Shown: piece by piece, positions 27,312 through 43,992 of the stretch
Layout of the letters: every line of letters starts with the position of its first letter
Position numbering within the stretch: the stretch's first letter is position 1
NCBI RefSeq assembly: GCF_900168295.1
Contig: NZ_FVZL01000001.1
Coordinates: 706,134 to 770,133 of the forward strand
Origin: Arthrobacter sp. P2b
GTDB lineage: Bacteria > Actinomycetota > Actinomycetes > Actinomycetales > Micrococcaceae
Reading direction: 5' to 3'
Length of the DNA: 64,000 nucleotides
Position numbers and translations under genes: made by a program
The notes under the pieces: model-generated
Databases searched by the model: none
Told to the model about the DNA's origin: nothing
Seen by the model: only the letters and a program-made list of their open reading frames with translations

Positions 27312-28639
27312 GCTGCCGCCTTTCTCAGCACGATGGCAAGGTCGGCCAGGTCGCCAAGCGTCAGCACCGTCAGGTCTGCGATGTTGGCCCTGGTGGGGGC
27401 GGCTCCCGCCTCGATCCTCACGGCGAGGCTGCGGACGCCGGGCGGAACAGACACCGCCGCGGAACGGAGCTGCGTGGCGGTCACGTTGCTGCCCACCACG
27501 AAGAAAATGACGGAGGCGTTGGGGACAGTGTCCGCCAGGGTCCTGGCGAGGTCGACGGCGGTGCGGCGCATGGGAGTGCCGATGATCCTTGTCATGTCGT
27601 CCAGCATGTTGCGGCCGGTTTCACAGCGCAGCGGGCCTTTTTGGGTGAGGATATCCAGTTCCCGCTGTTCACGGATGGCCTGGCGGCCGATCGATGCTGC
27701 CGCCGAGATGGCCATCTCGAATTCGGTCTCGGAGGCATACTCATCAGTGTTGATGGACAAGGAGATGGCCAGGTGGGCGCGGCGGGTTTCCTCGAACTGG
27801 CGCACCATCAGCTTGTTGGTCCGCGCGGTGGTCTTCCAGTGGATGTGCCGCCGGTCATCGCCCGGGACGTAGTCGCGCAGCGCATGGAAGGACACGTCGG
27901 CGCTGGACAGGTCCGTGGTGGGCATGCCTTCCAGGTCGCGGATGAATCCGGCTGCGGAACCGGCGAGGGCAACGGTGCGGGGGTGGACGAAGAGGTCTTC
28001 CGGTTCGGTCCACAGGACCTGCCGGCGCAGGAGGTGCAGCGGGTCCGCCCGGACGGACCGCACGGGCCCCACCACGATCACGGCGCGGCGGGCCGTGGGG
28101 ATGGTGAACAGGTCCTCGTGGACCTGCTGGGGTTTCATCCGGGGCAGGTGGAACACCGCGGTGGCATTGCCCACCGGCAGTTCCAGTGCCGCCGGCAGCA
28201 AAGGACGGGCTGACGTGTTGGACACGGCGATGCTGCCTACGGCGCTGTCCCCAACGGCCACCCGTGTGCGGGCGAGGTCCAGCACCACTCCGTAGGAGGA
28301 TCGGCCCAGGATGAAGCCCACCGCAACCAGGAGCATGACGAAGGCTGCAATGGCAGCTGCCTTGGCCTCCTGCCACCCGAAGGCCTGGCCTGTTGCCCAA
28401 AGCAGGATGGAAGCGGCAAGCACGGACCAGCCCAGGACGCTGACCACTGACAGGACCGACCAGGCGTACTTCAGCCAGGCGCCGCGGACCGCCCGCCACG
28501 CTGGTGCCAGTGCCAGTCCGGCCGTGCTGCTCGCTTCGGCCCAGACGGCGGCCGGGTGCAGCCGAGTGGGCTGGCCGTTCCTGGCGAAGGGTTGCTTGAG
28601 ACGCTCCGTGAGACGGATCAACGGGGTGCCGCTGGACAT
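27308..28639 (-). CDS. DUF58-family membrane-anchored protein
   Basis: This 443-aa protein has two N-terminal membrane helices (about 45-90) and the DUF58 core, whose signature is GDDRRHIHWKTTARTNKL. A von Willebrand A-like domain follows. The ATG at 28639 has GAAGG upstream. A longer frame to 28810 is rejected because the extra residues are Arg-rich and overlap the MoxR gene. DUF58 genes regularly sit with MoxR ATPases, which may load metal or fold this VWA-like partner. It is coupled to the transglutaminase-like gene by a four-base overlap. Confidence 0.9.
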   Translation of the reverse strand: MSSGTPLIRLTERLKQPFARNGQPTRLHPAAVWAEASSTAGLALAPAWRAVRGAWLKYAWSVLSVVSVLGWSVLAASILLWATGQAFGWQEAKAAAIAAFVMLLVAVGFILGRSSYGVVLDLARTRVAVGDSAVGSIAVSNTSARPLLPAALELPVGNATAVFHLPRMKPQQVHEDLFTIPTARRAVIVVGPVRSVRADPLHLLRRQVLWTEPEDLFVHPRTVALAGSAAGFIRDLEGMPTTDLSSADVSFHALRDYVPGDDRRHIHWKTTARTNKLMVRQFEETRRAHLAISLSINTDEYASETEFEMAISAAASIGRQAIREQRELDILTQKGPLRCETGRNMLDDMTRIIGTPMRRTAVDLARTLADTVPNASVIFFVVGSNVTATQLRSAAVSVPPGVRSLAVRIEAGAAPTRANIADLTVLTLGDLADLAIVLRKAAA

Positions 28640-28692
28640 ATGTGTGCCTTCGTTATGTTGCGCTGGATTATTTTTCGCGGGGGTGGCGGCGG

Positions 28693-29670
28693 TCAGACGT
28701 TGGTGCGCTGCTGCGGAGCGGCGACGTCCGCGAGGATACGGGTCAGCACAGCCCCGGCTGTTGCTCCGGAGAATTCCGCTTCGGGGTCCATCACAAAACG
28801 GTGCGTCCACACCACGGCAGCCAGTTCCTTGATGTCGTCCGGGAGGACGAAGTTCCGTCCCTGCGAGGCGGCCCAGACCTTGGCGGCACGCACCATCGCC
28901 AGCGCGCCGCGGACCGAGACGCCGAGGCGGGTCTCGGGGGCGTTGCGGGTTTCTTCACACAACCGGGAAATGTATTCCAGGACGGCCGTGTCCACATGCA
29001 CCGTGGCGGCGAGGTCGGCCATGTCAGCGACGGCCTGGGTGGTGATGACGGCCGACAGTTCCTTGGAACGGTCCTTGAGGTTGGACCCGCCCAGGAGGCG
29101 CACGGTGGAGGCGTGGTCCGGGTAGCCGATGGAGGTCTTGATCAGGAAGCGGTCCAGCTGTGCTTCGGGAAGCCGATAGGTGCCGGCCTGTTCAATGGGG
29201 TTTTGGGTTGCCATCACCATAAACGGCCGCCCTGCCTCGTAGGTGACGCCGTCCACGGTGACGCGGGATTCCTCCATCACCTCGAGCAGCGCGGACTGGG
29301 TCTTGGGCGAGGCACGGTTGATTTCGTCGGCGAGGACGATGTTGTTGAAGATCGGGCCTTTGTGGAACTCGAACTTCTGCGTTTTCTGGTCGTAGATGGT
29401 GACGCCGGTGACGTCCGAGGGCAGCAGGTCCGGGGTGAACTGGATGCGGTTGTTCGAGCCCTGCACCGTGGCGGCGAGGGCCCGGGCCAGGGACGTCTTG
29501 CCTGTTCCCGGCGCGTCTTCGAACAGCACGTGGCCCTCGGCGAGCATGGCCGTGAACGTCAGCCGGATGACGTGTTCCTTGCCCAGGACGGCCTGGCCCA
29601 CATTGGCAACGAGTTTCTCGAACGTGTCGGCAAACCAGGCGGCCTGCTCGGTGGTCATGGTCATGGTCAA
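28693..29670 (-). CDS. MoxR-family AAA+ ATPase
   Basis: This 325-aa cytoplasmic ATPase has Walker A APGTGKTSLARA near residue 54 and Walker B VLADEINRASPKTQSALLEVMEE near 112, with the MoxR lid region after 230. MoxR proteins act as chaperone-like partners of VWA-domain proteins. The adjacent DUF58 gene (53-base gap) is the expected partner. The gene lies 37 bases after the first giant surface-protein gene. It matches aaa-atp of the FN3 cluster. Confidence 0.93.
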   Translation of the reverse strand: MTMTMTTEQAAWFADTFEKLVANVGQAVLGKEHVIRLTFTAMLAEGHVLFEDAPGTGKTSLARALAATVQGSNNRIQFTPDLLPSDVTGVTIYDQKTQKFEFHKGPIFNNIVLADEINRASPKTQSALLEVMEESRVTVDGVTYEAGRPFMVMATQNPIEQAGTYRLPEAQLDRFLIKTSIGYPDHASTVRLLGGSNLKDRSKELSAVITTQAVADMADLAATVHVDTAVLEYISRLCEETRNAPETRLGVSVRGALAMVRAAKVWAASQGRNFVLPDDIKELAAVVWTHRFVMDPEAEFSGATAGAVLTRILADVAAPQQRTNV

Positions 29671-29707: not shown

Positions 29708-32700
29708 CTAGCGCTGCGGCATGCCGGCGGGCGGGCCTTGGCCGTCCCTGTTGGTGGTGTCGTGACGGACGTAGTTGCCGGCGGCGGGACCGCTGGTCAG
29801 GTGGTACCAGATGCCGGATGGGTTCTCCGAGGTCTTGTACCAGACCACATAAAAATCCGACTCGGACGGGGTGTTTTCGGGCAGCCACTTGCCGGGGCTG
29901 ACGCAGCTGGACGGGTTGCCGGCGCGGAAGCTGTCCACGCCGTAACCGGGCTCGGTGCAGCTGCGGACCGGTGTGGCGCTGATGGTCCACGAGGTGGGTT
30001 GCGGCGGAGGTGGCGCCGATCCGCTGCGTGAGGTGTCGCTGCCGATCCGGCCCGGCTGACCGGCGCTGATGGCCCGCACCCGGAGGGTATGGGTTTCGCT
30101 GTAGCCGGCACCCGTGGAGAAGGATCGCGCATCGGTATTCGTCCAGGCACCGCCGTCGAGGCTGTACTGGTAGCCGGTCACGGGCCGGCCATTGCCGCTG
30201 GGCTGGGTCCAGGTCCAGGAAACCGACCGTTCCCCCTGGGGCTTGCTGGCCCCTGTCACCACGGGAGCATGCGCCAGGCCGTACGGGTTGACGGAGTTGG
30301 ACGGGGCGCTGGCATCGCCGGCAACGGTACTGCGGGACGACACGGCCCACACCACAACTGCAGTGTTAGTGCCGTTGGGAGCTGCCACCACGCCTCCTCC
30401 GGCCGGGATGGTTCCGGAGCCGCCTCCCGACGTGAGCCTGTACTGGTAGGTAATTTCGGCCGGGGCGGACCCGTTCCTCTGCGCTTCCGTCAACACGGTG
30501 AAGCGGACGTCGATCTTGCCGCCGTTGCCGTCGGTGTCCACCAGGGCTGCCGTGGGGGCAGCCACGGTTCCTGGCTTGCCCACGGCGCGGATTGCCGCCG
30601 ACTGCGCGCTGGTTGCACTGGTGCCCGCCTTGTTGGTGGCGGAAACCGTGAACGTGTAGTTGGTTTCCGAGTTGTCCACCGTCACGTTCTGGGACGTACC
30701 CGCCACCTGTTGGGTGTTGACCACAGTACCGCCACGAAGCGTGGTCAGGGTGTACGCGGACACGGCGTCGCCGTTGTTGTTCGGCGCCGTCCAGGTCACC
30801 TTCATCTGGCTCTGGCTGCCAACCGAGGATGCCTGGGCAGCGGTCGGCGCCGCCGGGGTTGCGGGGACGCCGGCCGGCACTTCGGCAGCCGAGTACGGGC
30901 TCCACTCGGACGGTTCCTTGGCATCGTTGCGGGCCAGGACCCGGACCTTGTAGGAGACGCCGTTCTGCAGGCCCTTCCAGACGTAGCTGACAGCCGTCAG
31001 GTTCTGGATCTGAGCGTTCTGCCCTGCCGGCGGCGGCGAGATCTCCAGGTCGTAGGACTTCACCGGGGAACCCTTGCTGGCCGGGGCGGTCCAGGTGATG
31101 GACAGCTCCTTGTCGCCGAACTTCAGCGAGGGCGCCAGCGGGGTGTCGGGCTTGACGTCGGGACGGACCTCAGCCGAGGCCGGGGACCGCTCGGACTCGC
31201 CGAACTCGTTGGTGGCAGTGACCTGGAAGTGGTACTTGGTGTTGTTGACCAGTCCGTTGAGGGTGCAGGTGTTGGCGGGGCAGTCCTGCTGGAACCCGCC
31301 CTCGCCGTACACCGTGTACTTGGTGATCGGGGAGCCCCGGTCCGCCGGCGCCGTCCAGTTCAGGAGTGCTGTCCGGTCCCCCACGCTTTGCGCCTGCGGG
31401 GTGGCGGGCGCCTGCGGCTTGTCCTTGACGGTGAGCCGGATCCGGGCCGTCGCCTGCCGGGAGGAGTCCCCTGTCTTGTCGGCCACCGTGTAGGACACCA
31501 CCATGGTTCCGGTGAAGCCCGGCGCCGGGGTGACCGTCACGGCGTCACCGTTGACGTCAACGTTGCCGCTGCCGGTTTCCGCCCCGGCCGCGATGATCTT
31601 CAGCGGCGTTTCCGGGAAGGGGTTGGCGTCGTTGGCCAGGACATTGACCGTCACGGGCTTGCCGGCGGCAACGTTGTCCTGGACATCATCATTGGCCACC
31701 GGTTTCGGCCGGTTGGACGCCGTAACTGACAGCTGGTACGTGGCCACTGCCTCGAGCCCGCGCGGGTCCCTGGCCTTGACCTGGACGGCACCCGTGGTTC
31801 CGGTGCCGGTGGAGTCAGCTGCGGAAACCTTCAGGGCCTTGCCGTCGATGGCGGCGTTGAAACCGGCCGGTGAGCCGCCCACCAGCTCATACTTCATCTT
31901 TTCGACGTCGTCCCGGTCAGGATCCGAGGTCAGCTTGCCCAGGTCGATGCTGGCGGAGTCGCCCTTGGGCACATCAACACTGGCACCGAGGAGCTCGGGC
32001 GGGTTGTTCCTGTTGGGATCGGGCAGCACCTTCGTGCGGATGCTGAGGGTGGATTTCAGGCCGGCCGGATCGTCCGGGCCGGTTCCGTCCGTCACCTCGA
32101 AGGTGAGCGAACCGGGCCCGACGTAGTCAGTGCCGGCGGTGTATTTCAAACCGTCGCCGTCGCCGGTGACAGGATCGCTTCCGTCGGAGCCGATCAGCTT
32201 GATCCGGTCCGTCTGCGTCAGGCGGGGCGAACGGCCCTCGCGCACCTTAACCCATTCGTCCAGGTCCACCTCGACGGACTGGCCGGCGACGACCTCGATG
32301 ACCTCGTCCTTCGCCAGGGTGGGAAGCTGCTGGCCCAGGCCCGGAACCCAGATGACCGCCGTCGACTGCTGGCCGTCCACGTCCTCCACCGTGTACGGGA
32401 TGAGCTGTGGTTGTTCGGTGAGGTCCACGATCACGGTGCCCTCTGCGCCGGGCCGGGCCGTGGCGGCCTCTGTGCTGATCTTCAGGTTCTCCCCCACGCC
32501 GTCGGGATCCTCGTCGTTCTTCAGGACGGGGACGTCCACGGCGGATTTCCCCATGGTCTGCGCGGACGTGACCCTGTCGTCACGGGCGATCGGCGCCTTG
32601 AGGGGCACCTCATTGTCGACCACGACACCGATGGCAGCCTGGGCGGAAGCATCCCTGTCGTCGGCGATGGTATACCGGACGTTGACGGTTCCGGCTTCGC

Positions 32701-35700
32701 CCGGCGCCAGCAGGATGATCCTGCCGCTGGCCTTGCTGACGGTGGCCTGCAGTGCGGGATCGGCTTCGATGCCGTCCGTCAGGATGCGGAGGAGGTCGCC
32801 GTCCGGGTCCGTGTCGTTGCCGGTGGCGTCGACGGCGATCTGCCGGCCCGGGCGGACCCGCACCTCGTCATCCACGGGGGTGGGTTTCTGGTTGGTCTCG
32901 CCGCGCGGCGCGATGCCCACAGTCACCGTTCCGGTGTTGACAGCCCCCTGGCGGTCCACCACTTTGTAGCGGAAGGTGTCTGTTCCGGCGCCGTCCCCGG
33001 CTGCCGTGAAGTCGATGAAGTTGCTGCCGACGGCGGCCGTTCCCATCGCCGGGGTGCTGTCGATGCCGGTGAGCTGGACCGAGTCGCCGTCCGGATCGAT
33101 GCCGTCCAGGGGAACGGGGATCCGGACCGTGCCGCCGGCCACCACGCGTGCGGTGAGGTTGCGCGGCTGCGGACGCGAGTTTTCGGCACCTTCGAGCGGA
33201 AGGATATGGATGGTCACCGCGGCGGCGCTCTTCTGGCCCTGCGGATCCACGGCGTTATAGATGGCACGCACCGTTTTGGGCTGGCTGCCGGCAATGAACC
33301 GCAGCGTGTTTTCCGAGACGAAGCTCTTGCCGTCCACCGGGTCCACGCCCTGCGGCAGGACCGGATCCACGGTGAGTTGCTGGCCCTGCGGGTGGGTGTC
33401 ATTGTCGAGCACCGGGATGGTCACGACGTCGTTCACGCGGACGTTGACCTCGTCCGGTTTCGGCTGGGGAGCCTCCACCACGGCGGGGGCGGGGACCGGC
33501 ACAACCGAGACGCTGCCCGTGGCCGATTTCCTGCCGTTGGACATGGTGTATTCGAACAGGATGGGGTCCTTCGTCCCCAGGATGTCCGTGATGCGCAGGA
33601 CGCTGTGGTTGATCACGCTGACAGATGCGGTGGAGTTTTCGGGCAGCCTGACGGACTGGAGTACCAGGACCCCGCCTGACGGATCGGAGTCGTTGGCGAG
33701 GGGGTCCAGCAGCACGCTTCCGCCGGTGGGCATCAGCGCCACGTCGTGGACGGCGACGGGGTTGCCGGTCTCATCCCCGGATTCGACGTCAACGCGGATC
33801 AGGCCCTGGCTGCTCTGCGGGCCGTTGCTGGCGATATAGGTCAGGTACACGGGGCCGGGGGTGGTGCTGCGGAAGGTGAACGTGCCGCCGTCGGTGACCG
33901 GGCCGAGTTCGGCCGGGCCGTTTGCTTCCACTTGGGCGAGCCGGAGGGCGCCGCCGTTGGGGTCCACGTCGTTCTTCAGCGGGGAAATGACCAGGTCCTG
34001 GCCCACCACGGCCGTGACGTGGTCCGCATTGACCACCGGCGCTAAGGCTCCCGGCGGCTGGACGTTGACCACGACTTCCCCGGTCACGGTGGCGCGGCCG
34101 TCCCAGATGGTCACCTCGACGTTCTTCTTGCCGGCCGTGGCGCCCGAGTCCTGGAACGTCAGGAGCCCGTCGCGGCGGACTTTCACCTGGTCCTGGTCGT
34201 TGTCTGCCTTGGCGTCGAGGAGGACCAGGTCGTCGCCGTCGGGGTCGATCCAGTCCGTGAGGATGTTCTGGCTGACGGTCTTGCCCTGCTCCACCAGCAT
34301 GGTGGTGTCATCGCCGCGCTTGAACTGTGGCGGCTTGTTCTCGTCAGGGCCCACCACGCTGAGCGTGACCTGGCCGCCGGCCGAGAGGCCGCGGCCGTCC
34401 GAGGCGTTGTAGTTGAACGTCTCCGTGCCCGGTTTCGCATCTGCCGGGACGGAGACCTGGAAGGCCGTGCCGCCGTAGATGTTCTCCAGGGTGCCGGATT
34501 TCGGGCCCGTATCCGCCAGGGCGGCGGTGAGGACGTCGCCGTCGGGATCGGAATCGTTGTCCAGGACGCTGAGGACGGTGGTCCGTCCGGGGCGGACGCC
34601 GACGGCGTCGGGCTTGGTTTCCGGCGGACGGTTGGGTTTGGTGCGGTCCGGCAGGACGTTGATGGTGTTGTTGTCCGCCGATTCCTGGTCCTGCTCGTCG
34701 GATTCGTTCTTGGGCGGGATGACGTCGTCCCAGTTGTTGACGAGCTGCATGTTCTGGTTGACCAGCCACACATTGCCCGAGTTCACATCATTCAGGACCA
34801 CCAGGTCCCGGTTCACCCGGAAAACATACGACGGCGACGCACTGGCCTTGGGCACGTCCACGTTCTTATCGTCAGCATCGTTCGTACAGTCCCGGACGTA
34901 CTTGTTCGCCCCCGACCACGCCGCGTGCACACACCCGCCCAACTGCACCGGCGCAGCCGGGACACCCTCGCCGTCGAACGCCACCGTTTTGGCCGTGCCG
35001 CCATCCAGCGGCTGCTTCAGCAGCGCCTTCTGCGTGGAAACTGCCACAAAGTCGCTGGCGGGACCGCCCTGCTGCAGCTTCGCCTCGCGGGCGTTGTCCA
35101 GCTGCAGCCGCTTCCCGCCAGGCAGGAACAACTCCCCCGCAGCCGCATCAAGGACCACCGGCTGGTCCCCCACCACCGTGATCTGCAGGTCACCCGCGCC
35201 CTTCAACTCGCCCCACGTCTCCGACTCCGAGGACGTGACCTCACCGTTGGCACCAACACCGGTCACCGTCACCACACCCGACTCCGGATCCGCCGAGTAA
35301 ATCCGGTCATCCTCCCCCACAGCCGAAACGGTGCCCTCGGAGCCCACCAGCACCGGCTCGGAAGCCTCCTCATCAAAACCATTCACCGTCGACGGCGACA
35401 CCGCCCACACCTTGCCCGAAGCCGCATCCGTCACCGAGATCACCTCGGAGCCGAAACTCACATCAGCAGCCCCCGGCAACTGCTTATCCCCACCCAGGCG
35501 CATGTTCGCCGGCGACACCTGATTCAACGTCGAACCAGACTCATCATCAACAAACACATCCCCCGCGTCCTGCAAAATGTCGAAGGTCGTGGACGCCGGC
35601 GTCACCGCACCATCAAGGACACGCGACGGATAATTCAGCCGCCCCACCGCATTCTTGGACTTCGACACCACCCACACACCGCCGTCGTTCAACTCCACCT

Positions 35701-35830
35701 CAGTGGTCTTAAACCCCGGATAGAGCACTGCCCCGGTCACCACAACAGCCACTGCGGCACCAAAGGCAGTGCCGGTGACGATCTTGTTGTGGCGCCGTTT
35801 CAATCCAAGTTTCCCCAGCAGACTTGTCAC
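29708..35830 (-). CDS. Giant membrane-anchored surface protein with Ig/cadherin-like and FN3 repeats (paralogue 1)
   Basis: This protein is about 2,040 aa from a GTG at 35830 (weak GAGGG ten bases upstream). An ATG 45 bases further up is possible but encodes unconvincing residues. A signal-anchor helix (about 17-38) has a short basic cytoplasmic end. Residues 40-375 are repetitive and beta-rich, propeller-like (LNDGGVWVVSKSKNAVGRL). From about 410 to 1,500 some ten Ig/cadherin-like units carry calcium-type DNDxDPDGD motifs. Three to five FN3-like units follow to about 1,930, with Trp/Tyr-rich strands. A distinct tail has two Cys (VRSCTEPGYG...PSSCVSP). It is second in the operon and corresponds to fn3 in the bifidobacterial cluster. 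Likely a cell-surface adhesin or stalk. Confidence 0.88.
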   Translation of the reverse strand: MTSLLGKLGLKRRHNKIVTGTAFGAAVAVVVTGAVLYPGFKTTEVELNDGGVWVVSKSKNAVGRLNYPSRVLDGAVTPASTTFDILQDAGDVFVDDESGSTLNQVSPANMRLGGDKQLPGAADVSFGSEVISVTDAASGKVWAVSPSTVNGFDEEASEPVLVGSEGTVSAVGEDDRIYSADPESGVVTVTGVGANGEVTSSESETWGELKGAGDLQITVVGDQPVVLDAAAGELFLPGGKRLQLDNAREAKLQQGGPASDFVAVSTQKALLKQPLDGGTAKTVAFDGEGVPAAPVQLGGCVHAAWSGANKYVRDCTNDADDKNVDVPKASASPSYVFRVNRDLVVLNDVNSGNVWLVNQNMQLVNNWDDVIPPKNESDEQDQESADNNTINVLPDRTKPNRPPETKPDAVGVRPGRTTVLSVLDNDSDPDGDVLTAALADTGPKSGTLENIYGGTAFQVSVPADAKPGTETFNYNASDGRGLSAGGQVTLSVVGPDENKPPQFKRGDDTTMLVEQGKTVSQNILTDWIDPDGDDLVLLDAKADNDQDQVKVRRDGLLTFQDSGATAGKKNVEVTIWDGRATVTGEVVVNVQPPGALAPVVNADHVTAVVGQDLVISPLKNDVDPNGGALRLAQVEANGPAELGPVTDGGTFTFRSTTPGPVYLTYIASNGPQSSQGLIRVDVESGDETGNPVAVHDVALMPTGGSVLLDPLANDSDPSGGVLVLQSVRLPENSTASVSVINHSVLRITDILGTKDPILFEYTMSNGRKSATGSVSVVPVPAPAVVEAPQPKPDEVNVRVNDVVTIPVLDNDTHPQGQQLTVDPVLPQGVDPVDGKSFVSENTLRFIAGSQPKTVRAIYNAVDPQGQKSAAAVTIHILPLEGAENSRPQPRNLTARVVAGGTVRIPVPLDGIDPDGDSVQLTGIDSTPAMGTAAVGSNFIDFTAAGDGAGTDTFRYKVVDRQGAVNTGTVTVGIAPRGETNQKPTPVDDEVRVRPGRQIAVDATGNDTDPDGDLLRILTDGIEADPALQATVSKASGRIILLAPGEAGTVNVRYTIADDRDASAQAAIGVVVDNEVPLKAPIARDDRVTSAQTMGKSAVDVPVLKNDEDPDGVGENLKISTEAATARPGAEGTVIVDLTEQPQLIPYTVEDVDGQQSTAVIWVPGLGQQLPTLAKDEVIEVVAGQSVEVDLDEWVKVREGRSPRLTQTDRIKLIGSDGSDPVTGDGDGLKYTAGTDYVGPGSLTFEVTDGTGPDDPAGLKSTLSIRTKVLPDPNRNNPPELLGASVDVPKGDSASIDLGKLTSDPDRDDVEKMKYELVGGSPAGFNAAIDGKALKVSAADSTGTGTTGAVQVKARDPRGLEAVATYQLSVTASNRPKPVANDDVQDNVAAGKPVTVNVLANDANPFPETPLKIIAAGAETGSGNVDVNGDAVTVTPAPGFTGTMVVSYTVADKTGDSSRQATARIRLTVKDKPQAPATPQAQSVGDRTALLNWTAPADRGSPITKYTVYGEGGFQQDCPANTCTLNGLVNNTKYHFQVTATNEFGESERSPASAEVRPDVKPDTPLAPSLKFGDKELSITWTAPASKGSPVKSYDLEISPPPAGQNAQIQNLTAVSYVWKGLQNGVSYKVRVLARNDAKEPSEWSPYSAAEVPAGVPATPAAPTAAQASSVGSQSQMKVTWTAPNNNGDAVSAYTLTTLRGGTVVNTQQVAGTSQNVTVDNSETNYTFTVSATNKAGTSATSAQSAAIRAVGKPGTVAAPTAALVDTDGNGGKIDVRFTVLTEAQRNGSAPAEITYQYRLTSGGGSGTIPAGGGVVAAPNGTNTAVVVWAVSSRSTVAGDASAPSNSVNPYGLAHAPVVTGASKPQGERSVSWTWTQPSGNGRPVTGYQYSLDGGAWTNTDARSFSTGAGYSETHTLRVRAISAGQPGRIGSDTSRSGSAPPPPQPTSWTISATPVRSCTEPGYGVDSFRAGNPSSCVSPGKWLPENTPSESDFYVVWYKTSENPSGIWYHLTSGPAAGNYVRHDTTNRDGQGPPAGMPQR
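34711..35722 (-). repeat. 1,012-nt block nearly identical to part of the second giant gene (copy 1)
   Basis: It matches 41015-42026 without indels, with only about twenty base differences and four amino-acid differences by eye. Codons here favour NNG and NNT (TCG, GCG, GTG, GAT, TTG), whereas the flanking coding sequence favours NNC. It encodes the propeller-like region just after the membrane anchor. Confidence 0.9.
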
Positions 35831-35993
35831 AGCGATTTTTCCCTCAAGGTTTGGCGGTGGCCCCCAGGCCGGCACATCGGAGTACCCGGTATTGGACTCT
35901 CCGTTCCCCGGGCAAGCCTACCCAAGAGGCAGTAAGCCCGCGATGGGGAGGTCTCCCCCCGGGTCCGGCCTGCTGCATCTCTCTGCCAGGCTG

Positions 35994-38900
35994 TCAGCAC
36001 GGCGGCACCCCGGCATTTCCCGGCTCGCCCAAGGTGGTGGAACCAGCCACAACGTAGCGGCCCACGTTGCTCGCAGAGCCTGCCTCGATCCGGTACCAGG
36101 CGCGAATCGGGTTGGGGGTCCAGTGGTCGCTCTGAATGATGTAGCAGCGGACCACGAGAGTGTGGTTGTCGGCGACGTACAGCCACGGCGGCCGGTGCGC
36201 GTTGATGCCGTCGCAGTCATAGTAGGGTGCCGGCCGGTAGTTCGCCCCGCCCAGGGTGTAGGTGCAGGACCGTACAAAAGCCGGGTCTGCGGAACTCAGC
36301 CGGGTGGTCCATTCGCCGCGCTTGCCGGAGGTGGCGGTGGCGCTGACCTGGGCGCTGCCGGTGCCCAGGGAGTTGAACGTCTGCACGGTGATGGTGCGCT
36401 GCTGTTCCCAGCCACCTGTGTTGATCGTCCTGCTGCCGGAGGGGGCAACACTCTCCCAGCCGCCTCCACTGATGAGGATCCGGGTTTCCGCAACGTCATT
36501 GGTGGACGTGGAGGGCGATGACCAGCTCAGGGTTACGGTCTGGTCATTGAGCTGTCCGTTGGTGCCGCTGGCGGAGGGCGTGCCCGGTGAGCCGTACGGC
36601 GTGACCCTGGCGGGTGCACTGGCGTCAGAGCTCGGCGCCACGGTGGAGACCGCGGTGACGGTAACGGCGATGTCCTGGCCGTTGGTGAATCCACCCACGG
36701 ATTCGCCGGGGCTGATGGGCCCGCTTTGTCCTCCCGCCGAGTAGCGGTAGCTGACTTCCTCTGCACGGGAACCGTTGCGCTGGGCGTCCGTGAGCCGGTT
36801 GAACTGGATGGTGACCTGGCGGCCGGCACCGTTCGTATTGGCCGGCGTGGCGCTGACGCCGGTGACCTGGGCGAGTTTTCCGGTCGCGCGCCGGGGCGCG
36901 GAGGAGGGGCTGGCGGTTCCCTTGCCGGCTTTGTTTTCGGCCTGGACGGTGAAGGTGTAGGCCGTCTCGGAGTTCTGTGCCCGGAACACGGCAGTGCGGA
37001 CTGTCCCGGCCACCACCTGGGTCTGTGGGGCTGTGCCCCCGCCGTTCATGGTGACGTAGTAGTTCCGGATGGGATCGCCGTTGGTGTCAGGTTCGGCCCA
37101 GTCCACCCTGATCTGGTTTTCGCTGCCCACTGCGGCGGCCACAGCCGTGGTGGGTGCAGCGGGGGCGGCCGGGACACCGGCAGGGTTGTCCTCTACGGAG
37201 TAGATGCTCCATTCGGAGGGGCCAAGTTCGTTGACGGCCTGCGCGCGGACCCGGTATTTGACGCCGTTCGTGAGGCCGGTCCACGTGTAGTTCAGGCCGG
37301 CCACCTCATTCTTGACGGCGATGCCGTTGGAAGGCGGTGGCGAGATCTCCAGGTTGTAGTGCTTGACCGCGGAGCCCTCCGTCTTGGCGGCAGGCCAGTT
37401 GATGACCATGTTCCTGTCGCCGGCTTTGACCGACGGCGCGTCCGGCGGGGAGGGCTTTTCATCCGGCCGGATCTCGTTCGAGGCTGCCGATGGCCGGGAT
37501 TTGCCCACTTCGTTCTCGGCGATGACGGTGAAGACGTATTTGACGTCGTTGGTCAGCCCGGAGAGGGTGCACGTGGTGGTGGGGCACGCCTGCGAAAAGC
37601 CGTTGTTGGATTCCACGCGGTAGCCGGTGATGGCGGCGCCATTGTCCGACGGCGGCGCCCACTTGAGGACGGCTGTCCGGCTGCGGACATCCGTGGCGGA
37701 GGGGGCAGAGGGCGCGTCAGGCACGTCGCGGACGGTCAGCCGCAGGCGGCCGGTGGCCTGCCGTGAAACGTCGCCGGTCTTGTCCACCACCATGTAGCGG
37801 ACCACCATCACGCCCTTGAAGCCCGGTGCCGGGGTCACCGTGACGGAGTCCCCGTCAAATGTTGGTTGTCCCGCCGCAGATCCCGTTTCCACTCCCGCGG
37901 CAACAATCTTCAGCGGTGCATCGTCGAACGGGTTTCCGTCGTTGCCCAGGACGTTGACGGTTTCCGTCTTTCCCGCGTTCGCTTTTTCGACGACGTCGTC
38001 GTTGGCCACGGGCATGGGCCTGTTGGAGGCCACGTGCCGTGCAGAGATGTTTGCTTTCACCGCCGGAGACCTGCCGTCGGTGACCCGGACGGGGATGTTT
38101 CCGGTAAACCCGGCCGCTACCGACGTTTCGGCCCTGACTTCGAGGATGGAACCGTTCACGGAGGCCGAGAATCCGGCGGGAAGACCGCCGTCGAGCTCGA
38201 ACTTCAGGTTGCCCTTGTCCTGTTGATCAACATCCTCAGCGAGCGGCCCCAAGTCCAGCCGTGCTGATTCGGCCTTGGGTACGTCCAGTGCAGCACCGCT
38301 GAAGGTGGGCGGGTGGTTGGCGTTGGGATCCGGTATCACCCTGGTCATGATGACAAGGGTGGACTTCAGGCCCTGGGGATCGTCCGGACCGTTGCCGTCC
38401 GTGACTTCGAAGGTCAGGGACCCCGGGCCCACGTAGTCGGCCTTGGCGGCGTAGCGGAGCGCGGTCCCGTCTCCGGCAATGACGTTTTCCGGCGAGGCGC
38501 CCTGGACCTTGACGGAGTCTGCCACGGTGATGCGCGGCCGCTTCCCGTCGCGCACCCGGACGTAGTCGCTGAGTTCGAGGGTGACGTCCTTGCCGGCCAT
38601 CACTTCGACGATGTCGGTCCTCGACAGGCTGGGGTATTGGGCTCCCTGTCCGGGGATCCACATAACGGCGGTCGAACTCAGGCCGTCAACATCCGTGACG
38701 GTATAGGGAATCAGCTGGTCCTCCGGCGTGAGGGTCACCACTACGTTGCCGGAGCCCCCGTCCCGCGCGTTCGGGTTGCCGTCGGGGAGGCTGATCTTCA
38801 GGTCCGCGGCGACGCCGTCGGCATCGGAGTCGTTCTTGAGGACCGGGACGTCGACAGCGGCCTTGCCGAGGGTTTCCGAGGGCGTAACCCTGTCATCCTT

Positions 38901-41900
38901 TGCGGCCGGGCGCTTGAGCTCGGCGTCGGGACTGATCCGGATCCGGATGGCAGCCCCGGCCCCTGCCTTCTTGTCATCCTGGATTTGGTAGCCGATGCCG
39001 GCGTTGCCGGCAATCGACGGGGCTGTGAAGAGTACCTTGGAGTCCTCGGTGGCTTCCGCCTGGAGCTCGGGCAGTGCCTCGAACGAGCCGGCGAGCAGGG
39101 CGATGGGGTCGCCGTCGGGGTCGGAGTCGTTGGCCAGCGCGTCCACCGCAACTTTGCGCCCGGGCCGGACATCGATGGAGTCTTCCACGGCGATGGGGTT
39201 CTGGTTGTTGGCTTCCGGCGGGGCGATGCCCACAATCACGGTTCCCGTGTTTTCGGCTCCGATGCGGTCGCGGACCCGGTAGGTGAAGGTATCGGTGCCT
39301 GCGGCGTCACCGGCGGCGGTGAATTCGAGGTAGCCGTCCTTGACGGTGGCCGTACCCATCGCGGCGGCCTTGTCGATGCCGATCAGCTGAACGGAGTCGC
39401 CGTTCGCGTCTATCCCGTCCAGCGGTACCGGGATCTTCACGGTCATCCCGGAGACAACCCGGGCCGTCAGGTTCCGCGGCTCGGGGCGGGAGTTGCGTTC
39501 GTCGTCGCGGGCCTGGATCCGGATGGTGACCTGCTGGGAGTCCACCTGGCCGGTGTCATTCCGCACCTTATAGATGGCGTAGACGGTTTTGGGGGTCTCG
39601 CCGGCAATGAACCGCAGCGTGTCCCCGGATACGAACATCCGCCCGTCCGCGGCATCGGGCTCCTGGGCAAGTTCGGGAACCAGTGCCAGTTTCCCGCCGT
39701 TGGGGTCAGTGTCATTACCCAGGACCGGGATGGTCACCACGTCCCCGGCGCGTACGGTGGCCTCGTCCGGCTTGGCCTGCGGCGGCTGGAGTTTGGCTGG
39801 GGCCGGGACCAGCAGCACCGCGATCTCGCCCACTGCGGACGCGCGGCCATTGGAAATGGTGTACTTCATGGTCAGCTGGCCTTCGGCACGGATATCCGTC
39901 ACGCGGACCACCGAATGGTCCAGGACGGAGACGCTGACCGGCAGGCCGGAATCCGCGGTAACGGACTGGACTACCAGCACGCCGCCCGACGGGTCGGAGT
40001 CGTTCCCCAGCACATCCACCAGCACGCTGCCGCCGGTGGGAAGCAGGGCGATGTCGCGCACCGCTACCGGTGCGCCCTCATCGTTGCCTGGAACGACGTC
40101 GACGCGGACCAGCTGCTGGGCGCTCGCCGGCCCGTTGGTCACTAGGTAGGAGACGTAGTGTGCCCCCAGCACCTCGGAGTTGAAGGTGAAGGTCTGCTGG
40201 TCGGCCCCGATGGTGGCTGTTGACTGCTCATCCGTTGTAGCCTGCGCCAGGCGCAGGGATCCGCCCTGCGGATCAACGTCGTTCTTGAGCGGGGCGATCA
40301 CGGTGTCGGCGCCGGCCACGGCGATGACGTGGTCGGCGTTGGCCAGGGGCGGCAGTGCGCCCGGCGCGCGGACGTCAACGGCAATCCGTCCCTCGGCCGT
40401 GGCTTTTCCGTCGGAAATGCGGACGGTGAGGACTTTGCGGCCGGGGGCTGTTCCCGAGTCCTGGAAGGTGAGCTGCCCGTCGGGCCTGATCCGGACCTGG
40501 TCCAGCGGGTCCGGGCTGGTCACGGATTCCGCGAAGAGGTCGTCGCCGTCGGGGTCAATCCAGTTGGGGAGGATGTTCTGGGTGAGCGCCTTGCCCTGCT
40601 GGAGCACCAGCGTGGTTTCGCGGTTTGGTTTCTGCTGCGGCGCTGAATTTTCGCCGGCAGGAACAATGCGCAGTGCCACGTCGGCAGTTCCTGACAGTCC
40701 GCGCCCGTCGTCCACTGTGTACTGGAAGGAGTCTGTTCCGGTCTTGTCCGCGGGCACCGCGACCTGGAAGCCGGTGTCGCCGTAGATGGTGGAAAGGGTT
40801 CCGGACTTAACCTCGGCGGGCGGTCGCAGGGTGAGGATGTCGCCGTCCGGATCCGTATCATTGTCCAGCACGGGCAGGATGGTAGTCTTGCCGGCCCGGA
40901 CACCAAAGGCATCCGGTTTTGCCGAGGGCGGGCTGTTGGGTTTGGTGCGGTCGGGCAGGACGGTCTGCTGGACTTCGTCGGCGGAGTCCTTGTCCGCGTC
41001 GTCCGACGTTTCTTTGGGTGGGATGACGTCGTCCCAGTTGTTCACGAGCTGCATATTCTGGTTGACCAGCCACACGTTGCCCGAGTTCACATCATTCAGG
41101 ACCACCAGGTCCCGGTTCACCCGGAAAACATACGACGGCGACGCACTGGCCTTGGGCACGTCCACGTTCTTGTCGTCAGCATCATCCACACAGTCACGGA
41201 CGTACTTGTTCGCCCCCGACCACGCCGCGTGCACACACCCGCCCAACTGCACCGGCGCAGCCGGGACACCCTCGCCGTCGAACGCCACCGTTTTGGCCGT
41301 GCCGCCATCCAGCGGCTGCTTCAGCAGCGCCTTCTGCGTGGAAACTGCCACAAAGTCGCTGGCCGGACCGCCCTGCTGCAGCTTCGCCTCCCGGGCGTTG
41401 TCCAGCTGCAGCCGCTTCCCGCCAGGCAGGAACAACTTTCCCGCAGCCGCATCAAGAACCACCGGCTGGCCCCCCACCACCGTGATCTGCAGGTCGCCCG
41501 CGCCCTTCAACTCGCCCCACGTCTCCGACTCCGAGGACGTGACCTCACCGTTGGCACCAACACCGGTCACCGTCACCACACCCGACTCCGGATCCGCCGA
41601 GTAAATCCGGTCATCCTCCCCCACAGCCGAAACGGTGCCCTCGGAGCCCACCAGCACCGGCTCGGAAGCCTCCTCATCAAAACCATTCACCGTCGACGGC
41701 GACACCGCCCACACCTTGCCCGAAGCCGCATCCGTCACCGAGATCACCTCGGAGCCGAAACTCACATCAGCAGCCCCCGGCAACTGCTTATCCCCACCCA
41801 GGCGCATGTTCGCCGGCGACACCTGGTTCAACGTCGAACCAGACTCATCATCAACAAACACATCCCCCGCGTCCTGCAAAATGTCGAAGGTCGTGGACGC

Positions 41901-42164
41901 CGGCGTCACCGCACCATCAAGGACACGCGACGGATAATTCAGCCGGCCCACCGCATTCTTGGATTTCGACACCACCCACACACCGCCGTCGTTCAACTCC
42001 ACCTCAGTGGTCTTAAACCCCGGATATACGATGGCGCCAACCACCAGGACAGTGAGCGCGAGCCCGAAAATTGCTGAGGTAAGGAGCCGGGACCGCAGGA
42101 ACGAGGTGCGGAACGGTGCGGCTGGCACGGCGTTTTGCGCGCGACTTTGTCCGCGAAGTTTCAT
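35994..42164 (-). CDS. Giant membrane-anchored surface protein with Ig/cadherin-like and FN3 repeats (paralogue 2)
   Basis: This 2,056-aa protein starts at the ATG at 42164, with GGGGGAAG seven bases upstream. It is collinear with paralogue 1: basic N-terminus, signal anchor (about 28-48), the shared propeller-like block (47-383), about ten Ig/cadherin-like units with NDxDPDGD motifs, then several FN3-like units. The final approximately 100 residues differ from paralogue 1 and are Cys-rich (VRSCTYTL, YYDCDG, VVRCY) with Cys as the last residue. Outside the shared block the two proteins are clearly diverged. It is the first gene of the eleven-gene operon. An AT-rich stretch with TATATT (42234-42229) lies upstream. 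Confidence 0.88.
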   Translation of the reverse strand: MKLRGQSRAQNAVPAAPFRTSFLRSRLLTSAIFGLALTVLVVGAIVYPGFKTTEVELNDGGVWVVSKSKNAVGRLNYPSRVLDGAVTPASTTFDILQDAGDVFVDDESGSTLNQVSPANMRLGGDKQLPGAADVSFGSEVISVTDAASGKVWAVSPSTVNGFDEEASEPVLVGSEGTVSAVGEDDRIYSADPESGVVTVTGVGANGEVTSSESETWGELKGAGDLQITVVGGQPVVLDAAAGKLFLPGGKRLQLDNAREAKLQQGGPASDFVAVSTQKALLKQPLDGGTAKTVAFDGEGVPAAPVQLGGCVHAAWSGANKYVRDCVDDADDKNVDVPKASASPSYVFRVNRDLVVLNDVNSGNVWLVNQNMQLVNNWDDVIPPKETSDDADKDSADEVQQTVLPDRTKPNSPPSAKPDAFGVRAGKTTILPVLDNDTDPDGDILTLRPPAEVKSGTLSTIYGDTGFQVAVPADKTGTDSFQYTVDDGRGLSGTADVALRIVPAGENSAPQQKPNRETTLVLQQGKALTQNILPNWIDPDGDDLFAESVTSPDPLDQVRIRPDGQLTFQDSGTAPGRKVLTVRISDGKATAEGRIAVDVRAPGALPPLANADHVIAVAGADTVIAPLKNDVDPQGGSLRLAQATTDEQSTATIGADQQTFTFNSEVLGAHYVSYLVTNGPASAQQLVRVDVVPGNDEGAPVAVRDIALLPTGGSVLVDVLGNDSDPSGGVLVVQSVTADSGLPVSVSVLDHSVVRVTDIRAEGQLTMKYTISNGRASAVGEIAVLLVPAPAKLQPPQAKPDEATVRAGDVVTIPVLGNDTDPNGGKLALVPELAQEPDAADGRMFVSGDTLRFIAGETPKTVYAIYKVRNDTGQVDSQQVTIRIQARDDERNSRPEPRNLTARVVSGMTVKIPVPLDGIDANGDSVQLIGIDKAAAMGTATVKDGYLEFTAAGDAAGTDTFTYRVRDRIGAENTGTVIVGIAPPEANNQNPIAVEDSIDVRPGRKVAVDALANDSDPDGDPIALLAGSFEALPELQAEATEDSKVLFTAPSIAGNAGIGYQIQDDKKAGAGAAIRIRISPDAELKRPAAKDDRVTPSETLGKAAVDVPVLKNDSDADGVAADLKISLPDGNPNARDGGSGNVVVTLTPEDQLIPYTVTDVDGLSSTAVMWIPGQGAQYPSLSRTDIVEVMAGKDVTLELSDYVRVRDGKRPRITVADSVKVQGASPENVIAGDGTALRYAAKADYVGPGSLTFEVTDGNGPDDPQGLKSTLVIMTRVIPDPNANHPPTFSGAALDVPKAESARLDLGPLAEDVDQQDKGNLKFELDGGLPAGFSASVNGSILEVRAETSVAAGFTGNIPVRVTDGRSPAVKANISARHVASNRPMPVANDDVVEKANAGKTETVNVLGNDGNPFDDAPLKIVAAGVETGSAAGQPTFDGDSVTVTPAPGFKGVMVVRYMVVDKTGDVSRQATGRLRLTVRDVPDAPSAPSATDVRSRTAVLKWAPPSDNGAAITGYRVESNNGFSQACPTTTCTLSGLTNDVKYVFTVIAENEVGKSRPSAASNEIRPDEKPSPPDAPSVKAGDRNMVINWPAAKTEGSAVKHYNLEISPPPSNGIAVKNEVAGLNYTWTGLTNGVKYRVRAQAVNELGPSEWSIYSVEDNPAGVPAAPAAPTTAVAAAVGSENQIRVDWAEPDTNGDPIRNYYVTMNGGGTAPQTQVVAGTVRTAVFRAQNSETAYTFTVQAENKAGKGTASPSSAPRRATGKLAQVTGVSATPANTNGAGRQVTIQFNRLTDAQRNGSRAEEVSYRYSAGGQSGPISPGESVGGFTNGQDIAVTVTAVSTVAPSSDASAPARVTPYGSPGTPSASGTNGQLNDQTVTLSWSSPSTSTNDVAETRILISGGGWESVAPSGSRTINTGGWEQQRTITVQTFNSLGTGSAQVSATATSGKRGEWTTRLSSADPAFVRSCTYTLGGANYRPAPYYDCDGINAHRPPWLYVADNHTLVVRCYIIQSDHWTPNPIRAWYRIEAGSASNVGRYVVAGSTTLGEPGNAGVPPC
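41015..42026 (-). repeat. 1,012-nt block nearly identical to part of the first giant gene (copy 2)
   Basis: Partner of 34711-35722, with the same length. Identity drops sharply at both borders: just after the membrane helix and just after the NNWDDVIPPK segment. Confidence 0.9.
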
Positions 42165-42228
42165 GGAAAAGCTTCCCCCAAGTATTTTCCGGCGCCGGCT
42201 TCCGGCCGTGCGGCGGCCGGGCACACCT

Positions 42229-42234
42229 AATATA
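42229..42234 (-). promoter_or_regulatory. Possible -10 (TATATT) for the FN3-type operon
   Basis: This is the most AT-rich point in the 114-base gap upstream of the operon's first gene. No convincing -35 was found at standard spacing, so the call is weak. Confidence 0.25.
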
Positions 42235-42278
42235 GCCCGTAAGACCAACAAATGGATAAACTGTGTGGAAACGCGGCC

Positions 42279-43403
42279 CTAATCCAGGACGAGCCCCTTG
42301 CCCAGGCCGCGGGCTAGCCTGACGGGCCGGATTTCGCCGAAGCCGCGGACGTTTTCCGGCGGCTGGGGCACCAGAACGAAGCGCTCATCCTGCTCAAGGG
42401 CGGAGGCAGTCATCGAGTCCACCAACACCGTTCCGGGATCAGCAAGGGTGGTAAGCCGGGCCGCGAGGTTCACGGTGGGACCGTAGATGTCCCCGAGGCG
42501 GGACAGGATCCTGCCCCATACCATTGCCACCCGGGCTTCCGGCAGGATTTCATCCTCCGTGAAAGCCTGGGCAAGGGCGAGTGAGATCTCGGCGCCGGCA
42601 GCCGGAGTTTCGGCAATATAAAGGACTTCGTCGCCGACCGTCTTGACCAGGCGGCCGCCGCCGACGGAGATGATTTCGGCGCACTTGTTTTCGAAGCGCT
42701 GGACCAGGCGCGCCAGCGTCTTTTCGTTCATGCGGCGGGACAGGCTGGTGTAGGACACCAGGTCGGCGAAGCCCACCGCACGGGCCAGCGGCAGCGGCGC
42801 GTCATCCTCGTCCCCCTCACGGCCCTCTTCGCTGGCCTGCAGGCCGGCCTCGGCACGGACGGCGAGCCGCTGGACTCCGGCGTTGAGTTGCCGCCGCCAG
42901 GAGTAGACAAGAACCTCTTCGAGGGCATCAACCAGGGCGGGCAGTTCGTTGACCAGGCGCTTGCGCGCCACGGCGTCCGTGACGCCCTGCTCGTGGACCA
43001 TGTCCTCCACGAGGGCCTCGATCTGCCAGACCACCATGCGGTCCGTCATCTGGCCGATGGAGCGCGTGACGGAGATCGCTGCTTCCTCCGTGAGCTTGCC
43101 GGACCGGACCAGGTCCACCACGGTGGAAAGGGCCGCCTGGTCGCGTTCGGTAAAGGCGACATCCTCATCGCCAAAGTTGGGGAAGCCGAGGGCACGCCAC
43201 AGCTTGCGTGCGGACAGGAGCGACAGCCCGGCGCCGGCGGCCACCTCACGACGGCGGAGCTTGCGTTCCCCGCCGAGCAGCCGGCTTTCCAGCGCCTTCA
43301 TGGCCAGCCGCTCGGCGGACATGGTGCCGGTGGCAGGGTGGGGGTCCGCCGCGGGTGCGGGCGCGATGGATTCGACGCGTTCCTGCTGGTCCTCATCGTT
43401 CAT
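42279..43403 (-). CDS. Class III adenylate cyclase with Rv1264-like N-terminal regulatory domain
   Basis: This 374-aa cytoplasmic protein is predicted to make cAMP from ATP. The N-terminal helical domain (about 35-195) resembles the autoinhibitory, pH-responsive domain of mycobacterial Rv1264, including REVAAGAGLSLLSARKLWRALGF. The cyclase domain (about 210-365) keeps its key residues: metal Asp in GFADLVSYT, purine-selecting Lys in RLVKTVGDEV, the second metal Asp in GDE, and the Asn/Arg pair in GPTVNLAARL. The ATG at 43403 has AGAAGG eight bases upstream. An in-frame GTG at 43412 is too close to it. It overlaps the PH-domain gene by eleven bases. Confidence 0.9.
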   Translation of the reverse strand: MNDEDQQERVESIAPAPAADPHPATGTMSAERLAMKALESRLLGGERKLRRREVAAGAGLSLLSARKLWRALGFPNFGDEDVAFTERDQAALSTVVDLVRSGKLTEEAAISVTRSIGQMTDRMVVWQIEALVEDMVHEQGVTDAVARKRLVNELPALVDALEEVLVYSWRRQLNAGVQRLAVRAEAGLQASEEGREGDEDDAPLPLARAVGFADLVSYTSLSRRMNEKTLARLVQRFENKCAEIISVGGGRLVKTVGDEVLYIAETPAAGAEISLALAQAFTEDEILPEARVAMVWGRILSRLGDIYGPTVNLAARLTTLADPGTVLVDSMTASALEQDERFVLVPQPPENVRGFGEIRPVRLARGLGKGLVLD

Positions 43404-43992
43404 CCCGTCCACCTTCTCTCATTTCCCACGGCAAAGCTTCGGCGGGGTAGTGCGTTGTGCCGCCCGGCTGGACATCACGTTCCTCCGGCAATTCCTCGAT
43501 GGCATCGAGGATGAAATCCCGGAATGTGGCAACCTCGGGCACGTCCTGGAATGTCACCACGCCCTGGTGCCCGGTTTCCAAGGATATATTCCCGGAGCGC
43601 AGGAGGCGTTGCAGTACCGACTCGTGGACGGTGAGGTTGCGCACCGAAGCCAGGTTGACCTGCTGGTCCCGCCGTTTCAACCTGCCGTATCTGGCCACCA
43701 TCCTTTGGCTGGTGAGGGTGTACCGCGTGCCGTGCCAGCGCAGCAGCTTGGGCAGGCAGAAGCCGAGCCAGACCCAGGCAGCCGCGGCAATGCAGGCAGC
43801 CACCAGCCACGGCGTCCATTGTGCTGTGAGGAAAGGTACATGGCGGCGCGCCTCTCCCCGGATGATCCAGGCCGAAGCGTACGCCGCCAGCGCGGGCGAC
43901 ACGATGAAGGCGAGTGCAGCTCCTGCCAGCTTCCTCGGCTGCGGGCGTGTGGTGACAATCACCTGTTCGCCCGGAACGAGGTCTTTACGCAT
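43393..43992 (-). CDS. Bacterial PH-domain membrane protein
   Basis: This 199-aa protein has two N-terminal transmembrane helices (about 20-42 and 58-80). A bacterial PH-like domain (about 85-165) carries RYTLTSQRMVARYGRLKRRDQQVNLASVRNL, the usual bPH signature. A hydrophilic tail follows. It overlaps birA by eight bases and the cyclase gene by eleven, so the three are one operon. Function unknown. Confidence 0.85.
   Translation of the reverse strand: MRKDLVPGEQVIVTTRPQPRKLAGAALAFIVSPALAAYASAWIIRGEARRHVPFLTAQWTPWLVAACIAAAAWVWLGFCLPKLLRWHGTRYTLTSQRMVARYGRLKRRDQQVNLASVRNLTVHESVLQRLLRSGNISLETGHQGVVTFQDVPEVATFRDFILDAIEELPEERDVQPGGTTHYPAEALPWEMREGGRDER

Follow-up and report, generated by a model that had tools for sequence, protein, structure and literature searches.

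Gene conversion between bacterial paralogues, or concerted evolution, is known as a segmental and repeated homogenisation within the genome, together with deletion by crossing-over, and biased gene conversion, where base composition shifts via biased fixation in converting DNA, is usually discussed as a bias towards G and C (GC). We have analysed a 64,000-nucleotide stretch of the genome of Arthrobacter sp. P2b, a member of the Arthrobacter group of soil bacteria (contig NZ_FVZL01000001.1, positions 706,134 to 770,133; this whole stretch is called the window), in which two giant surface-protein genes standing in tandem, B upstream and A downstream, share an almost identical block of 1,012 nt in their N-terminal parts. 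This locus differs from the described paralogue conversions in that a single domain of diverged giant genes is homogenised and that a strand-specific base bias comes with it. It differs from GC-biased conversion since G and T (the keto bases) are favoured over A and C on one strand, while the GC content of third codon positions falls from about 0.86 in the rest of the gene to 0.75 in the block (means of the A copies of the 36 homogenised pairs described below), i.e. no excess fixation towards G/C was seen in these pairs.

Converting cassettes with a coding-strand GC skew and atypical codons have been described at the vls locus of Lyme Borrelia (PMC11499132; this and the other papers given by PMC number are represented here by parts of their text), where the skew averages 0.52 and was read as being under strong selection. 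In our survey the coding-strand GC skew is +0.31 in homogenised and -0.01 in diverged blocks. Silent cassettes with G clusters serve one expression site in vls (PMC11499132), whereas here two full-length genes are kept alike and not varied, T is enriched as well as G, and a G-quadruplex motif occurs in 15 of the 36 homogenised blocks. Nor does the pair consist of promoterless silent cassettes that supply a single expression site: both block copies are the N-terminal parts of full-length open reading frames (ORFs) of about 2,000 amino acids (aa). Mycobacterium tuberculosis is likewise a NucS-type actinobacterium in which converting paralogous regions have an altered substitution spectrum; the preprint discusses NucS and states that repair asymmetries could reshape the composition of such regions (PMC13061034). 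The enrichment reported there is T>C/A>G with the strands pooled and a reduced NucS action is proposed, while the consulted sections contain neither a strand-resolved keto bias nor a codon shift (PMC13061034). A strand-specific keto bias in gene conversion is not reported in those parts of the open-access literature that were consulted.

We consider it likely, with a probability of about 0.7, that conversion keeps homogenising the propeller block of these old tandem paralogues and, being non-neutral, drives the block to keto-rich codons. The elements concerned are the following:

35994..42251, minus strand: gene B, the upstream giant gene; ORF of 2,085 aa with a transmembrane (TM) helix, the propeller block, nine Big_9 and three FN3 domains
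29708..35875, minus strand: gene A, the downstream giant gene; 2,055 aa, with the same architecture as gene B
41015..42026, minus strand (in frame 41013-42026): block copy B, homogenised and keto-rich
34711..35722, minus strand (in frame 34709-35722): block copy A, homogenised and keto-rich; predicted beta-propeller domain directly after the TM helix

Recurrent gene conversion restricted to the block

The two blocks are direct repeats 6.3 kb apart. Their ungapped alignment has 20 mismatches over 1,012 nt and four amino acid changes (334 of 338 residues identical, 0.988), in agreement with the original prediction. The divergence that it had claimed for the rest of the two proteins was also confirmed: 9 of 203 four-fold degenerate sites differ within the block and 310 of 550 beyond it, where nucleotide identity is about 60% and residue identity 51%. 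The uniform synonymous divergence that had been named as the sign against conversion is therefore absent.

The block protein was matched in 119 of 150 genomes of the genus. Eighty loci, hand-picked from the match table, were fetched; with the window they comprised 61 loci with two matches and 20 with one, and 56 complete pairs were compared after five incomplete ones had been dropped. Pairs were termed homogenised when the four-fold difference of their blocks was below 0.25, which holds for 36 of the 56, and most homogenised when it was below 0.07 (26 pairs); in the rest of the genes these 36 pairs differ by 0.42-0.68. The best-matching segment ends at most 13 alignment positions from the ...IPPK boundary in 31 of the 36 (the other 3' edges lie at -90 and at +179 to +184), and in 32 its 5' edge lies no more than 63 positions upstream of the block start (the others being at -172, -123, +6 and +378).

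The median four-fold difference of the block is 0.035 within genomes (36 homogenised pairs) versus 0.36 between genomes, and the corresponding block protein identities are 98.8% and 86.1%. The silent sites of the block are therefore not frozen, and purifying selection alone is rejected because these sites differ by a median of 36% between species; strong selection for a shared domain, the alternative offered originally, fails as the sole cause on the same ground. In the block, 69 of the 72 sequences from homogenised pairs have their own paralogue as nearest neighbour, and none of the 40 from diverged pairs does; in the post-block part this applies to none of the 112 sequences. The block tree groups the A and B copies of a genome as cherries in 36 of the 56 pairs, namely in the homogenised ones except L055 (35 of 36) and in the diverged pair L056; the post-block tree has no such cherry. 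It was thus demonstrated that intragenomic gene conversion is recurrent and restricted to the block, while the flanks keep their separate ancestry. Conversion between the paralogues, as first proposed from the window, is upheld by silent sites, nearest neighbours and trees across the genus; the adjective "recent" is not, since homogenisation recurs in 36 of 56 pairs, nearly always genome by genome.

From other genera of the family 19 loci were fetched. One pair, L177, is homogenised in the block (99%) with a mild skew (0.56), and L178-L180, loci of the same genus, are diverged; L177 looks like a recent onset of conversion. L186 and L193 show a fair similarity over the entire gene, with 0.85 and 0.87 in the block and 0.72 and 0.80 in the rest. 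In two further loci of other genera, L187 and L194, three giant paralogues stand in tandem at a similar locus and are mutually diverged in the block as well as in the rest.

Five of the 20 single-copy loci (L101, L102, L103, L105, L107) are clear chimaeras with a B-type start and an A-type end. When 22 whole genomes were searched with the B remainder of the window, the five chimaeric genomes gave only matches of 33-54% identity, which correspond to the A-type remainder or weaker, the B gene of a paired genome (G041) giving 72%. Because no B-type remainder was found elsewhere in these five assemblies, the chimaeras look like real deletions between direct repeats and not like collapsed assemblies. 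N-terminal typing was correct in 108 of 112 controls. The start type was ambiguous, with a score within 11 of both types, in seven of the 20 single copies (L085, L086, L088, L090-L092, L097) due to one B copy, L045_B, whose upstream stretch is homogenised; L099 leans weakly to B, and the count given here comprises the five clear cases only. In eight genomes with a single-copy locus (G093, G002, G102, G105, G128, G137, G140, G035) a second giant relative, 46-48% identical to the B remainder of the window, lies elsewhere. In G100 and G088 the matches start at contig ends inside the block, and counts of the giant paralogues in short-read assemblies may be unreliable.

Keto-rich codons accompany homogenisation

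According to the original prediction codons end mostly in G or T inside the block and mainly in C outside it. This is what the third positions of copy A show: A 0.6, C 25, G 55 and T 19% in the block, and A 6, C 54, G 33 and T 7% after it. Among 525 ORF-like stretches from 864 kb of the own genome (mean third-position G+T 0.458, standard deviation 0.062) the two blocks take ranks 1 and 2 with 0.77 and 0.76; by raw G+T in 900-nt windows, without regard to codons, they are the second and third peaks and not the first. In each of the 18 degenerate codon families the block makes more use of codons ending in G or T: GAG is preferred over GAA, GAT over GAC, GCG over GCC, GGT and GGG over GGC, and TTG makes up 48% of the leucine codons versus 4% in the rest of the genes. 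Since all synonymous families shift alike, the data point to an effect at the level of bases on one strand, not at the level of tRNAs.

Our survey extends the original prediction in three respects: the pattern is genus-wide, the codon anomaly is a keto skew of the coding strand, and this skew accompanies homogenisation. Mean third-position G+T is 0.83 in the 26 most homogenised pairs, 0.72 in the 10 intermediate ones and 0.43 in the 20 diverged ones (range 0.37-0.54), and it correlates with the A/B difference over all 56 pairs (Spearman -0.84) and within the 36 homogenised ones (-0.51). Independent phylogenetic contrasts gave r = -0.77 (Spearman -0.47, p = 3e-4, n = 55). The same tie is found in the 20 codons upstream of the block, where the G+T fraction is 0.95 in the four lineages with at least 95% identity, 0.70-1.00 in 11 lineages of intermediate identity, and 0.45 (A) and 0.39 (B) in the 11 with less than 80%; over all 26 lineages it follows identity with rho = 0.84. 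In L196 (genome G091), a distant member of the own genus, the blocks are identical at all 211 four-fold sites and G+T reaches 0.94. It is the most extreme case also in its third-position C, 5% in the block and 40% in the rest of the gene. The five chimaeras have retained 0.72-0.85, while among the other 15 single copies seven of one clade have 0.44-0.50 and eight have 0.49-0.86, with 13 of the 15 at 0.65 or below. Taken together, the keto skew is clearly tied to homogenisation.

Several observations fit less well with a skew driven by conversion. The expected sign was obtained in only 19 of the 27 larger contrasts, and the diverged pairs come mostly from one clade. L177 is homogenised yet only mildly keto-rich, which we read as the recent onset mentioned above; in L181 (genus g31) the B block is keto-rich (0.73) although its A partner is diverged and has normal codons; and the single copies L093 (0.75) and L099 (0.86) remain keto-rich. 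Within the block, the last approximately 30 codons are homogenised but not keto-rich, and outside them the 5'-3' trend in keto content is weak and is weakly present in diverged pairs, too. A repeat between two DUF222/HNH-type genes of the own genome (C21:438863-440851 and C21:697128-698300, 258 kb apart, 1.4 kb shared at 93% identity) is only mildly enriched, its best 250 codons having a G+T of 0.64 in the first copy and 0.56 in the partner.

Two further DUF222/HNH copies on the same contig have best-250-codon values of 0.53 and 0.45, and one stretch beside a DUF222/HNH-type gene is keto-rich on the opposite strand. Besides the blocks, a single repeat with a length of 300 bp or more and an identity of 90% or higher is among the matches listed for the 864 kb of the own genome. 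The downstream copy (A) of L181 has an ORF of only 1,407 aa.

Origin of the bias and the possible role of NucS

In a direction test, derived silent changes present in one copy were compared with those present in both copies, with sisters and outgroups placed on the tree of the A remainder; sites were pooled over related genomes, the test is small and its p values are rough. At a divergence cut of 0.25 (19 genomes) 6 changes from A/C to G/T stood against 40 reverse ones in one copy, and 33 against 40 in both copies (odds ratio 5.5, p = 2.7e-4). The per-site rates were 0.016 and 0.016 in one copy, and 0.089 (A/C to G/T) and 0.016 in both. A cut of 0.35 (29 genomes) gave 10 versus 68 and 55 versus 104, respectively (odds ratio 3.6, p = 3e-4), and at these two wider cuts C/T and C/G variants were both biased. 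The first form of the test, with sites pooled likewise, pointed in the same direction (odds ratio 1.9, p = 0.005); its outgroups were possibly misplaced and it was replaced by the tree-checked test. The tightest cut, 0.20 (13 genomes), speaks against this result, as it gave 4 versus 12 in one copy and 18 versus 27 in both (odds ratio 2.0, p = 0.37), with one-copy rates of 0.015 (to G/T) versus 0.007, i.e. the supply of variants already leans to G/T. From this one test with its limits, the bias seems to enter at fixation into both copies, the supply being near neutral.

In the mechanism that we propose, homologous recombination between the direct repeats would repeatedly convert one block copy to the other, and an occasional crossover would delete the DNA between them and leave a chimaeric single copy. 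Homology is lost at the TM helix and, at the opposite end, at the ...IPPK linker, and conversion would stop there. Silent A-B variants with G or T on the coding strand would preferentially reach both copies, so the block would drift to keto-rich codons as long as conversion lasts and drift back after it stops. Selection for two matching propellers may be the reason why lineages keep the pair homogenised.

The cause of the bias might be the action of NucS on a strand-polar heteroduplex, which we put forward tentatively, at somewhat less than even odds. NucS prefers G:T, G:G and T:T, with weaker or no activity on other mismatches, notably A:C (PMC8228993); this preference and an inhibition of homeologous recombination by NucS are described in PMC8228993, PMC11551744 and PMC5290159. 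The NucS_C domain was found in all 14 genomes searched, the own one included, and the MutS_V domain in none of these 14, with controls positive in 7 and 11 of 14. NucS would thus act on keto:keto mismatches (G:T, G:G, T:T) and not on A:C, C:C or A:A. If the heteroduplex consisted mostly of the coding strand of the recipient and the template strand of the donor, a polarity which is assumed here, then G/T in the recipient against A/C in the donor would give a keto:keto mismatch, and the event would be aborted or corrected back; A/C in the recipient against G/T in the donor would give an amino:amino mismatch and escape, making conversion one-way towards G/T on the coding strand. We infer that the outcome would be the same if NucS merely restored the base of the recipient in a short patch, which is suggested for incoming oligonucleotides (PMC11551744). 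TGG repeats give the most stable RecA filaments (PMC3763553), and such a preference for TG-rich DNA could set and reinforce the strand polarity.

In the third of our toy two-copy models (rejection of at least 0.9, polarity of at least 0.8, 10 or 40 conversion attempts per mutation attempt) the keto content reached 0.62-0.69 at polarity 0.8 and 0.86-0.96 at full polarity, with an A/B difference of 0-0.044, and polarity 0.8 also yielded a low 3' edge. Modelled copies that start diverged stay diverged under rejection, which echoes the two observed states. The model indicates sufficiency under the chosen settings and is no proof.

Certain points weigh against the NucS step. The simulated skew needs strong polarity, strong rejection and much conversion together; models with less conversion or without polarity gave little or no net skew, and so did the first two simulations (diverged start or less conversion). 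NucS repair is described as short-patch, sparing nearby mismatches while clustered ones escape (PMC11551744), whereas the toy model assumes rejection of the whole tract. According to the preprint on mycobacteria, NucS may be less active while recombination takes place (PMC13061034).

The observed fixation bias alone cannot separate biased conversion from selection on silent sites, which could act on how the propeller is translated or could maintain a GT-rich sequence that suits RecA and keeps the copies identical, and the stability of RecA filaments on TGG repeats would suit the latter. We regard such selection as unlikely: translational selection should not stop once the partner diverges or is lost, nor would it prefer TTG to CTG, given that TTG makes up 4% of the leucine codons in the remainder of the genes, and selection for recombinability is a second-order effect, hence it is expected to be weak.

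A still less probable explanation is strand-specific mutation (by transcription, R-loops or exposed single strands) that makes the coding strand of the block G/T-rich, with conversion only sharing the result. A keto-rich coding strand with a GC skew of +0.31 is what R-loop-prone DNA would have, C-to-T and A-to-G are changes of the deamination type, and in the tightest set of 13 genomes the one-copy changes lean to G/T (4 of 261 versus 12 of 1732 sites). On the larger sets, however, the one-copy rates are equal (0.016 and 0.016; 0.017 and 0.018) and it is the both-copy changes that favour A/C to G/T; C-to-G is biased as well as C-to-T, and the same position of the gene has a G+T of just 0.37-0.54 in all of the 20 diverged pairs.

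Import of a foreign block followed by genus-wide spread, which the original prediction had considered and for which only the codon use sharply unlike the rest of the gene would speak, is highly improbable: dozens of species share the G/T codon use, which varies continuously with homogenisation, is low in all 20 diverged pairs and lies at 0.44-0.65 in 13 of 15 non-chimaeric single copies, and among the matches listed from 149 family genomes none outside the genus exceeds 57% residue identity. An assembly artefact by collapsed or duplicated repeats, raised at the outset as a possible refutation, is just as improbable even if some draft contigs (G100, G088) end inside the block, because a single 1.03-Mb contig carries both copies, which differ at 20 sites, single-contig assemblies of relatives (e.g. 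G051, G063, G126) have the same pattern, and no B-type remainder was found in any part of the five chimaeric assemblies.

Three other ideas were tried and discarded. An overlapping ORF is not needed, since stops in the same-strand alternative frames number 14.9 versus 14.9 and 19.8 versus 19.4 (observed versus synonymous shuffle) and those in the in-phase antisense frame 0.42 versus 0.42; the two other antisense frames of homogenised blocks have slightly fewer stops than the shuffle (2.9 versus 4.2 and 6.4 versus 8.1 per block). No dominant k-mer supports a Chi-like or single short motif; the E. coli Chi occurs 4 times and the looser GNTGGTGG 56 times in the 36 A-copy blocks, counts that are given without a chance expectation. 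G-quadruplexes as a cause are too patchy, as the motif is lacking in 21 of the 36 homogenised blocks and in all 20 diverged ones.

It is conceivable, though we would not yet bet on it, that these loci represent a new class of biased gene conversion, in which strand-polar recombining repeats of bacteria having NucS but not MutS evolve to G/T on one strand. If a strand-specific keto bias comes and goes with conversion, silent sites would be subject to a new evolutionary force, which would account for unusual codon use with no need for import or selection on expression and could mislead codon-based tests of selection. If it holds, recombining repeats would be self-reinforcing, as they would also become preferred by RecA, and they would settle in one of two stable states, in which the copies are either homogenised with keto-rich codons or diverged with normal ones. 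Silent codon skew would then serve as a detector of ongoing conversion from sequence alone, and the role of NucS in recombination could be read from genomes. With so many replicate lineages, the idea lends itself to direct tests.

Domain architecture and neighbouring genes

The propeller-like fold that had been proposed for the block is supported by structure prediction. The model has moderate confidence (mean predicted local distance difference test score 65, predicted template modelling score 0.65, from an alignment of 33 sequences), and its Foldseek matches are NHL propellers (E of about 7e-7; best VIA Z 16.1); residues 26-84 and 291-338 are modelled poorly, therefore the number of blades is unsure. 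The block thus probably encodes a membrane-proximal beta-propeller, the TM helix being read from the sequence. The nine Big_9 domains of each giant protein are cadherin-like. The true start of gene B is probably downstream of the listed TTG. No known RNA elements at Rfam gathering scores and no tRNAs by ARAGORN were found in the window. The genes around the giant pair are the following:

42279..43412, minus strand: adenylate/guanylate-cyclase-domain protein, directly upstream of gene B (domain match 1.2e-9)
28693..29670, minus strand: MoxR-type AAA ATPase, downstream of gene A (AAA_3, 9e-63)
27308..28810, minus strand: DUF58 protein
24687..27311, minus strand: transglutaminase-like protein
23098..24690, minus strand: RDD / zinc-ribbon protein
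22076..23101, minus strand: PP2C phosphatase
20125..22164, minus strand: FHA-domain protein
18359..20128, minus strand: serine/threonine protein kinase

By gene content the locus is a putative operon of the PFNA type, since the pkb2, fn3, aaa-atp, duf58 and tgm genes stand together. The PFNA operon of bifidobacteria likewise has genes for a kinase, an FN3 protein, an AAA ATPase, a DUF58 protein and a transglutaminase (PMC6803598, PMC8430577); the present locus differs from it by two tandem giant FN3/Big_9 genes with a propeller base, and the word "propeller" is absent from the main text of PMC8430577. Additional RDD, PP2C, FHA and cyclase genes lie beside the PFNA-type set.

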